The notes beneath the pieces are model-generated. The model did not search any database. It was not told where the DNA came from and was given only the letters and a program-made list of their open reading frames with translations. DNA of 53,979 nucleotides, from NCBI GenBank assembly GCA_027364845.1, contig DAHXOO010000017.1:1-53979 (forward strand), written 5' to 3'. Positions 19,451 through 50,564 of the stretch are shown piece after piece (within the stretch, counting starts at the first letter, position 1; each line of letters opens with the position of its first letter). Origin of the DNA: Pseudomonadota bacterium (GTDB taxonomy: Bacteria > Pseudomonadota > Gammaproteobacteria > Acidiferrobacterales > UBA6901). The position numbers were made by a program, and so were the translations under genes.

Positions 19451-20692
19451 ATGTTACCCGCTGACATGCTTCGTCCGCGTCCGCGCCAGCGTGTGCAACG
19501 CTTGCTATATCGCTGGCGTCACCGATCCCGCTGGGATCTCTGGTTTCCACATACGCCGCTGGCACTGGCGGTAGGTCTGCTGGGAATCGCGAATGCGCTT
19601 CCGGCGATCAGGCACGTCATGCAGCTGCACAGTGCCGGCGGCCCGCTCGGTCCGCAGTCCCAGTTGCTCAATATGGGCATGCTCCACAGCCTGCCGCAGG
19701 GCATAGCCGGACTGATGCTGTTTGCCATGGCCGTGGGTTTGGTACTGCGCTCACGACTTGCCTGGGTGACTGCCCTGCTCGTTGCCGTGGCCACGCTGGC
19801 TATAGGATGGCACACGCCCGCCTATTACTCACGGGCTTTGGTCGTCTTCAACGGCGCAACGCTGCTGGCACTGCTTCTGTTCCACCGGCGCTTCGACCGA
19901 TCGAGCCTGGCTGCGGGAACATTATTCGCGGTCATCAGCGTGTTGATGCTGCTCGGCTACGCGGTCTTCGGCGCCTATGTCCTGGGCGGAGGCTTCGCAC
20001 CACCCATCAAAAATCTGTCGACGGCGCTATACTTCTCGGTGGTAACTATGTCGACCGTTGGCTTTGGCGACATCGTGCCTACCAGTGTCGACGCGCGCCT
20101 TTTCACGATGTCGGTGGTCATCCTCGGAATCACCATTTTCGCCACATCCATTTCGGCGATCATCGTTCCGGCAGTGAGCAGTCGCATGCAGCGACTGCTA
20201 GACGGGAGAAAAAAGCTCATGCCACGCAAAAACCATTACGTTATCGTGGGCGACACACCGCTGGCGCGCAACACCTACCGGGAACTCAGGGCGCGCCAGC
20301 TTCCGGTCACCGTAATCGTCGATCAACCGCCGGCAGCTGCCGAATTTTCCGATGCCGACGTCGTGGTTGGCGACGGCAGTGACGTCGAGACGCTCAACCA
20401 GGCCGGGGCCAGTACCGCAATAGCCGTGCTGGCCCTGCGTGGCGATGACTCGGAAAATGCCTTTACAGTACTGGCAGTCAAGGAAGCAGGTGGCAACCCA
20501 CGTACGGTTGCTGCGGTTAATCACGGTAAAAACATGGCGCGTGTGCGCAGTGTGCGGCCCGACATGATCATTGCCCCACAAGTGATGGGCGGCGAAATTC
20601 TTGCGATGGCCCTGAATGGCGAAAATCTGGATCGCGAGACCATCATTGAGCGGCTGTTCAAGGTGAGCGATAAAGAGCCGGAACACCCGTAA
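19451..20692 (+). CDS. kch: Kch-type potassium channel with RCK domain
   Basis: This protein of about 413 residues matches E. coli Kch in layout and length. An N-terminal membrane region of about six helices ends in the pore with selectivity filter STVGFGDIVPTS, where E. coli has GYGD. A C-terminal RCK/TrkA-N domain starts with NHYVIVGDTPLARNTYREL, ends with QVMGGEILAMALNGE and controls gating. It should pass K+ across the inner membrane. An in-frame ATG at 20219 just before the RCK domain has its own ribosome binding site (see separate entry). The N-terminal start is uncertain: TTG 19445, ATG 19451 and ATG 19466 are all possible and none has a good ribosome binding site. Confidence 0.88.
   Translation: MLPADMLRPRPRQRVQRLLYRWRHRSRWDLWFPHTPLALAVGLLGIANALPAIRHVMQLHSAGGPLGPQSQLLNMGMLHSLPQGIAGLMLFAMAVGLVLRSRLAWVTALLVAVATLAIGWHTPAYYSRALVVFNGATLLALLLFHRRFDRSSLAAGTLFAVISVLMLLGYAVFGAYVLGGGFAPPIKNLSTALYFSVVTMSTVGFGDIVPTSVDARLFTMSVVILGITIFATSISAIIVPAVSSRMQRLLDGRKKLMPRKNHYVIVGDTPLARNTYRELRARQLPVTVIVDQPPAAAEFSDADVVVGDGSDVETLNQAGASTAIAVLALRGDDSENAFTVLAVKEAGGNPRTVAAVNHGKNMARVRSVRPDMIIAPQVMGGEILAMALNGENLDRETIIERLFKVSDKEPEHP
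20204..20221 (+). promoter_or_regulatory. Internal ribosome binding site and start for a free RCK domain
   Basis: GGGAG at 20204-20208 precedes an in-frame ATG at 20219 by ten bases, inside kch. Translation from here would give a soluble RCK domain of about 157 residues (MPRKNHYVIVG). In E. coli Kch and archaeal MthK an internal methionine at the same place makes separate RCK subunits that join the gating ring. Use of this start is inferred. Confidence 0.55.
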
Positions 20693-38725: not shown

Positions 38726-38728
38726 TCA
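38726..38728 (-). other. In-frame TGA interrupting the giant gene
   Basis: On the minus strand the sequence around the stop reads STLAVN, TGA, TLNNSGTFALG. Equivalent repeats elsewhere in the same protein read LSVNGTLDNGGG and KLAVGGLVSNGG, so the lost codon was probably GGA (Gly) and one G-to-T change made the stop. No frame change occurs across it. Confidence 0.8.
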
Positions 38729-48903: not shown

Positions 48904-48939
48904 CAGCGACAGCCGAATTAATTCGACCCCGTGTCGCTG
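48904..48939. terminator. Hairpin directly after the restored PEP-CTERM stop codon
   Basis: CAGCGACA and TGTCGCTG form an 8-bp outer stem, with CGAATTAATTCG as an inner palindrome. The stem starts one base after the TAA at 48940-48942, the stop of the tail frame of the VPLPA/PEP-CTERM protein. This placement suggests a terminator for that gene. No clear T run follows. Confidence 0.5.
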
Positions 48940-49048
48940 TTAACAACGGGCCAACCACCTTTTGGCTGTGGCGCTCTTAGGTCGGGCGCAAACAGCGAGC
49001 CCGAGGAGGCCCGAGACGAAGAGCCATAACGCCGGCGGCAGCGGCACA
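48940..49048 (-). pseudogene. Out-of-frame PEP-CTERM (VPLPA) tail of the upstream gene
   Basis: In the frame ending at the TAA at 48940 the minus strand reads VPLPPALWLFVSGLLGLAV followed by CARPKSATAKR, a textbook VPLPA/PEP-CTERM sorting tail. The main frame of the gene (48977-49882) misses it by one base. Removing one base from the run of five G at 49049-49053 (plus strand) would join YAAP directly to VPLPP. Confidence 0.75.
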
Positions 49049-49882
49049 GGGGGCAGCGTAGTTGTAGCCGCTGGTACTTGAGACGGTGACGCCGGAATAC
49101 AGTCCAGTGAGGGTGATCGAGGGATCGATCGCGAGCGGCGCAGTAAGGGAGGGATCTGAATAATTTGTCGCAGTGATTTCTGCAATGTAGGCGACCTGGC
49201 CGCTCGTCAGGTCGCCAAGTGTGACGGGAACCGAAAAAGTAGAAGTGCCGGGGGAAAAAAGAGTAGGGCCATATGTGGATTGACTGAGTAGCCCGGTACA
49301 GGAAGATATTCCTCCACAGTCAAAAGGCGATCCCGAATATGACGACTGACCAAAGCTACCCGTATTGTATAGATCCAGACTATAGCCCGCGTACCCGGCC
49401 GCACCATATGTGGCTGTTCCTATCGAACCCGTAATGGTCATGGTGAGGGTGCCGAGAACGGTATTGGTATTAATAGTACCGCCGGTGGGCAAATTCCCCA
49501 GAGTCAGCGTGTCCCACATTTCGGCGGTACCGCCAGTACTACCATTACTCCCCGTGAGGCTCAGGCTGAGCTGATCACTGGCAAGGCTGGCCGTCGCGCT
49601 AGCGGAAGCGTAAGGGGACGCAGGGTCGGAGATGGTGTTCGTTTGACCCAAAATTCCGTCAGTGTAGTAGAACCCCGAGGGCGAACTGTAGCCGCCAACA
49701 GCCGTTCCTCCGTCGTAATAGGTGTCTGAAATGTACGTCCCTTCGGTAATCGCGGAGGACGCAAACGCCGACGTTCCCGCTCCCAGGGTTCCCGCCAACA
49801 GCGACCCACTCAAAAAAAGCACCCAGAGGAAGCGATGGGTCGTGCCGGGCGCGCGGTGAAGCTGGACTTGTAGGTATTTCAT
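48977..49882 (-). CDS. Secreted protein, PEP-CTERM type, tail lost by frameshift
   Basis: The 301-residue frame starts MKYLQVQLHRAPGTTHRFLW, a signal peptide with a long n-region and a hydrophobic core ending SAFASS near residue 42. The mature part is Ser, Thr, Gly and Tyr rich (GGTAVGGYSSPSGFYYTDG, GSTGGTAEMWDTLTLGNLPT) with two cysteines (FDCGGISSCTG), as is common in PEP-CTERM proteins. After NYAAP the frame is lost and a different tail (CAAAAGVMALRLG) is read, whereas the adjacent frame gives a perfect VPLPA tail ending at 48940. The ATG at 49882 follows AAAGGGGGATCC; a longer frame to 49915 is less likely. Confidence 0.75.
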   Translation of the reverse strand: MKYLQVQLHRAPGTTHRFLWVLFLSGSLLAGTLGAGTSAFASSAITEGTYISDTYYDGGTAVGGYSSPSGFYYTDGILGQTNTISDPASPYASASATASLASDQLSLSLTGSNGSTGGTAEMWDTLTLGNLPTGGTINTNTVLGTLTMTITGSIGTATYGAAGYAGYSLDLYNTGSFGQSSYSGSPFDCGGISSCTGLLSQSTYGPTLFSPGTSTFSVPVTLGDLTSGQVAYIAEITATNYSDPSLTAPLAIDPSITLTGLYSGVTVSSTSGYNYAAPCAAAAGVMALRLGPPRARCLRPT

Positions 49883-50212: not shown

Positions 50213-50564
50213 CGTTGGATTCTACTTCTTCTCGATTTGCCGCAACCCGATCAGCACATCTTGATTCTTATTATTGAGACGGTATGGTACCTATACGGGG
50301 GTTACAGATAGGGTACAGATTCCTTCCGGAGGGGGGCGGAACGATGGAAATTCTTGATAGAGCCACAGCAGGATCTGCGGAAGATACATAAAAACAATAT
50401 ATTACGCAGAATCTAGCTAGCAAAATACGTAAATAACCGGTGATCACGTCGACCCAGCACTCCACATTGTCATACTAATACTCTCTTCCTGCTACACAGA
50501 TGGCACGCAGGTAGGCTATTCCGTCTCCATAAAGAGTCCTGTAGCGTTCAGCTTCGTTTAGTGG

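Follow-up and report, generated by a model that had tools for sequence, protein, structure and literature searches.

A VPLPA/PEP-CTERM surface-protein paralogue with its sorting tail one base out of frame

The displaced sorting tail of one gene, a paralogue in a small family of VPLPA/PEP-CTERM surface proteins, is probably due to a single-base frameshift that arose recently where body and tail meet, in a genome with an eroding PEP-CTERM repertoire. The gene lies in the window, i.e., the whole stretch of 53,979 nucleotides that was analysed, which represents contig C88 of a 3.15-Mb draft genome of 184 contigs.

A sorting tail outside the reading frame

The open reading frame of the PEP-CTERM-type protein is located on the minus strand (49882..48977); it starts with ATG, is preceded by AAAGGGGGATCC, and encodes 301 amino acids that end in SGYNYAAPCAAAAGVMALRLGPPRARCLRPT before the stop codon at 48977-48979. 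The signal peptide (assigned by eye) and the body are in frame; the body has no other interruption, and the gene has a good ribosome-binding site. Signal peptide and body are followed by 23 out-of-frame residues (CAAAAGVMALRLGPPRARCLRPT), which have no counterpart in the paralogues, and the C-terminus of the encoded product has neither the motif nor the hydrophobic segment nor the basic residues of a PEP-CTERM protein. The VPLPA/PEP-CTERM sorting tail, VPLPPALWLFVSGLLGLAVCARPKSATAKRWLARC followed by a stop codon, is found in the neighbouring frame (49047-48940, minus strand), where it is recognizable by its match to TIGR03370 and by its codon-position pattern. Both profile matches, to TIGR03370 (VPLPA-CTERM; E = 0.0018, 18.2 bits) and to PF07589 (E = 0.068, 13.7 bits), fall below the curated cut-offs of 25.35 and 20.7 bits, respectively. 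Nevertheless, the tail is no chance match, because the DNA similarity to the paralogues crosses the junction into the tail. The earlier note had described such a tail, one base out of the frame of the open reading frame and next to a run of five G's; its coordinates, the run, and the tail are all correct.

Two relatives of the gene are present in the same genome. The paralogue at C100:362-1282 is complete and open, with a body 57% identical to that of the window gene and an intact tail, VALPAATWMFGSGLLGLLSVACRKRRR followed by a stop codon, in frame; the copy at C163:3408-3602 is a 3' fragment that is truncated at its 5' end. Among the 22 codons of the tail, the differences at the three codon positions number 9, 5, and 12 between the window and C100, and 10, 4, and 12 between the window and C163. 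The minimum at the second position suggests that the tail was held in its old frame until recently. In a DNA search of 60 relatives, the window gene matched its own genome and one tail-sized sequence and nothing more; plasmid records did not match the body, and no relative was confirmed among the GTDB species genomes.

The members of the family also share an upstream element, TGTACCCTATCTGTAAC, which is located on the minus strand at 50301-50317 of the window, at C100:1464-1480, and at C163:3621-3637. The genome contains exactly three copies of TGTACCC(T/A)ATCTGTAAC, all upstream of family members and each on the strand of the member that it precedes; the four congeners have none. The element contains TGTACC and TGTAAC with a spacing of 11 bases. 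It is possibly an activator site, comparable to the 17-base motif 1 of Haft et al. 2006 (PMC1569441). The idea that it marks a terminus of a widely distributed insertion sequence was dropped, because the 18-base form has only three exact matches in the entire GTDB collection, fewer than the approximately seven expected by chance (a rough estimate); they are found in Bacteroidales and Desulfobacterales and never in the congeners. About 180 bases after the element, a 59-aa open reading frame (50119-49940, minus strand) resembles at its start (MKxLxRWVV...VQAATVNWVGSSG) the adhesin from congener G002 and breaks off after approximately 46 residues.

The junction of body and tail

The junction contains a CCCCC run on the minus strand (49053-49049; GGGGG on the plus strand), and five C's are present at this site also in both paralogues. 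In C100 and C163, the sequence GCC CCC GTG reads in frame into the tail, whereas the window reads GCC CCC TGT G. Alignment places the unmatched letter, a T, at 49048, directly after the run; it has no match in either paralogue. The earlier note had proposed that deletion of one base within the run at 49049-49053 joins YAAP to VPLPP; the tail is indeed one base off, but the letter that is extra relative to both paralogues is this T and not a fifth C. It is possible that a C was instead inserted into an ancestral GCC CCT GTG with an additional third-position change, a placement that needs one change more.

The location of the run bears on the suggestion that slipped-strand mispairing at the five C's toggles the protein between an anchored and a released form. 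The run sits at the junction of body and tail, and short poly-C tracts are able to vary, as documented by the C5/C6 tract of NMB1760 in Neisseria (PMC5084427) and the variable C6 tract of bvgS in Bordetella (PMC1891110). However, tract variation grows with length and is found mainly at 8 or more bases (PMC5084427), C5 runs are commonplace in the 54-kb window (n = 34), with the tract no longer than expected by chance, and the same gene has longer runs elsewhere, namely a T7 and a T6 next to a C5. The frame also does not follow tract length among the copies: the two in-frame paralogues carry C5 as well, and the presence of this run in in-frame and out-of-frame copies alike indicates that the frame is independent of run length. 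Moreover, VPLPA tails are located in long open frames nearly throughout among the matches listed for 60 relatives, and the other breaks in the genome sit elsewhere in their genes, away from any long run, or consist of a stop codon. A phase-variable switch is therefore very unlikely. The T7 run, which is the longest homopolymer of the gene, lies within the region coding for the signal peptide (49812-49818, minus strand).

The sequence at the junction has a second possible reading, a programmed +1 ribosomal frameshift at CCC_UGU, in which tRNA-Pro would slip from CCC to CCU so that some ribosomes reach the frame of the tail. In Listeria phages, CCC_U is an established site of +1 shifting (CCC_UGA and CCC_UCC; PMC5009743), the frame of the tail is preserved, and a stable hairpin is located downstream. 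This hairpin (48904..48939, minus strand), which the earlier note had placed directly after the tail, is real (-17.9 kcal/mol, z = -3.6) and lies 3' of the stop codon of the tail. However, approximately 110 bases separate it from the shift site, and a comparable structure is absent from both paralogues. In addition, the A-site codon is UGU and not a stop, both paralogues encode the tail without a shift, and the arrangement is found in no homologue. Programmed frameshifting is considered extremely unlikely. The hairpin was also rejected as an intrinsic terminator, because it lacks a T run and is absent from the terminator scan.

Broken PEP-CTERM genes and the assembly

Damage to PEP-CTERM genes is not restricted to the window gene. 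Two adjoining PEP-CTERM genes of the same genome (G000:C114:19177-20460; L093 and L094) show a frame change before each tail, and their VPLPA tails near 19893 and 20384 are in a frame different from that of the preceding N-terminal open reading frame. For the first of the two, congener G003 carries an intact orthologue with identities of 78% and 84% on either side, and by alignment the broken copy is short of one base. VPLPA tails are located in short frames in 4 of 10 cases in this genome vs none of 19 in congeners G002-G004 (Fisher p = 0.009; the test was picked post hoc and the numbers are small). The family of the window gene itself is present in congeners G002 and G003 only as relics: in G002, the 5' half and the tail of the copy are missing, and in G003 the copy contains several stops. 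An exosortase (PF09721, E = 1.1e-70) is encoded in the same genome at G000:C33:34367-35125, and several intact PEP-CTERM genes remain.

The neighbour of the window gene is a giant adhesin-like gene (48739 to 32441, minus strand), a single frame of 5432 codons with one internal stop and a PEP-CTERM-like tail of its own; the terminal sequence, TPVPPSLPLFASGLLALSWMMRRKMRQVA, was recognized by eye, with weak HMM support. An in-frame TGA at 38726-38728 (minus strand), at a position where the other repeats of the gene have mostly Gly, removes the last 2094 residues of the protein, including the tail. An indel had been suspected in this gene and was rejected, because the lesion is one in-frame stop. 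The interval from the hairpin to the giant gene holds a signal-peptide-like remnant, MKTLMTWVTRVVAWRAVPILAAMTLT followed by a stop codon (48838-48760, minus strand).

The earlier note had offered a phase-variable switch as well as decay or an artefact as explanations. The other broken PEP-CTERM genes and the relics in the congeners favour decay, whereas the identical C5 run in the in-frame paralogues speaks against the switch. It is likewise highly improbable that several PEP-CTERM genes of one genome have frame changes close to their tails because exosortase sorting is lost and regained at the population level, with surface proteins anchored or released, via short indels and not long repeat tracts. 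Among the papers searched, none combines PEP-CTERM, exosortase, and frameshift; four mention both PEP-CTERM and phase variation, and neither term appears in the title or abstract of any of these.

The main rival to a young frameshift is an assembly or sequencing error, with the real gene in frame and the extra letter a consensus mistake. The genome is a draft of many contigs, the remainder of the gene is intact, and its tail looks selected; with a cleanly open body and a good ribosome-binding site, a polymorphism or one wrong letter in the consensus could explain the lesion equally well. By contrast, each of the 45 full-length ABC_tran domains in the genome is in an open frame of at least 224 aa (40 open reading frames, all unbroken, with a total of ~49.5 kb summed by hand), which renders a generally indel-rich assembly, and thus general indel noise as the cause of the frame break, unlikely. 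There is no indel in these ~50 kb or in the 16.3-kb giant gene vs three in ~9.8 kb of small PEP-CTERM genes, and another lesion is a nonsense substitution and not an indel. If three random indels were distributed over the ABC-transporter frames and the small PEP-CTERM genes (~9.8 kb), the probability of finding every one of them in the latter would be p ~0.005 (post hoc); when the giant gene is grouped with the PEP-CTERM genes, the value is p = 0.04 (also post hoc). A local error is considered rather unlikely.

Expected product and comparison with known systems

If the frameshift is genuine, as seems probable, the open reading frame would still specify signal peptide and body but none of the features on which the exosortase depends, namely the VPLPA motif, a hydrophobic segment, and a basic end. 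The result would be, at most, a secreted product without tail, presumably exported via its signal peptide and, because the required tail is missing, set free in the periplasm or degraded instead of being sorted. That the tail still looks selected for the former frame would be due to the young age of the lesion. The lesion would form part of a wider erosion of PEP-CTERM genes in a genome where the exosortase and several intact members persist. The case itself is modest, an ordinary frameshifted paralogue, and it teaches that paralogues should be compared before a tail one base off beside a short homopolymer is called a switch. That broken PEP-CTERM genes are overrepresented in this genome provides a small lead on the turnover of exosortase substrate sets.

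The window gene resembles the phase-variable surface genes of Neisseria and Bordetella (PMC5084427, PMC1891110) in that a frame change in a surface-protein gene lies beside a poly-C run, but its run comprises just five bases and has the same length in the in-frame paralogues. With the +1 site of Listeria phage PSA (PMC5009743), it shares CCC followed by U and a second frame that a +1 shift would reach, but it lacks the following stop codon, an adjacent stimulator, and a conserved arrangement. Compared to the VPLPA-CTERM and PEP-CTERM proteins sorted by the exosortase EpsH (TIGR03370, PF07589, PF09721; Haft et al. 2006, PMC1569441), the tail differs by its position outside the frame of the gene and by HMM scores below the cut-offs; also, ~13 residues extend beyond its matched part, which is longer than usual, since fewer than 10 residues follow the match in 87% of proteins (Haft et al., PMC1569441). 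The likeness to these proteins comprises the signal peptide, a tail of motif, hydrophobic stretch, and basic end, the many paralogues, and the presence of an exosortase gene in the genome.
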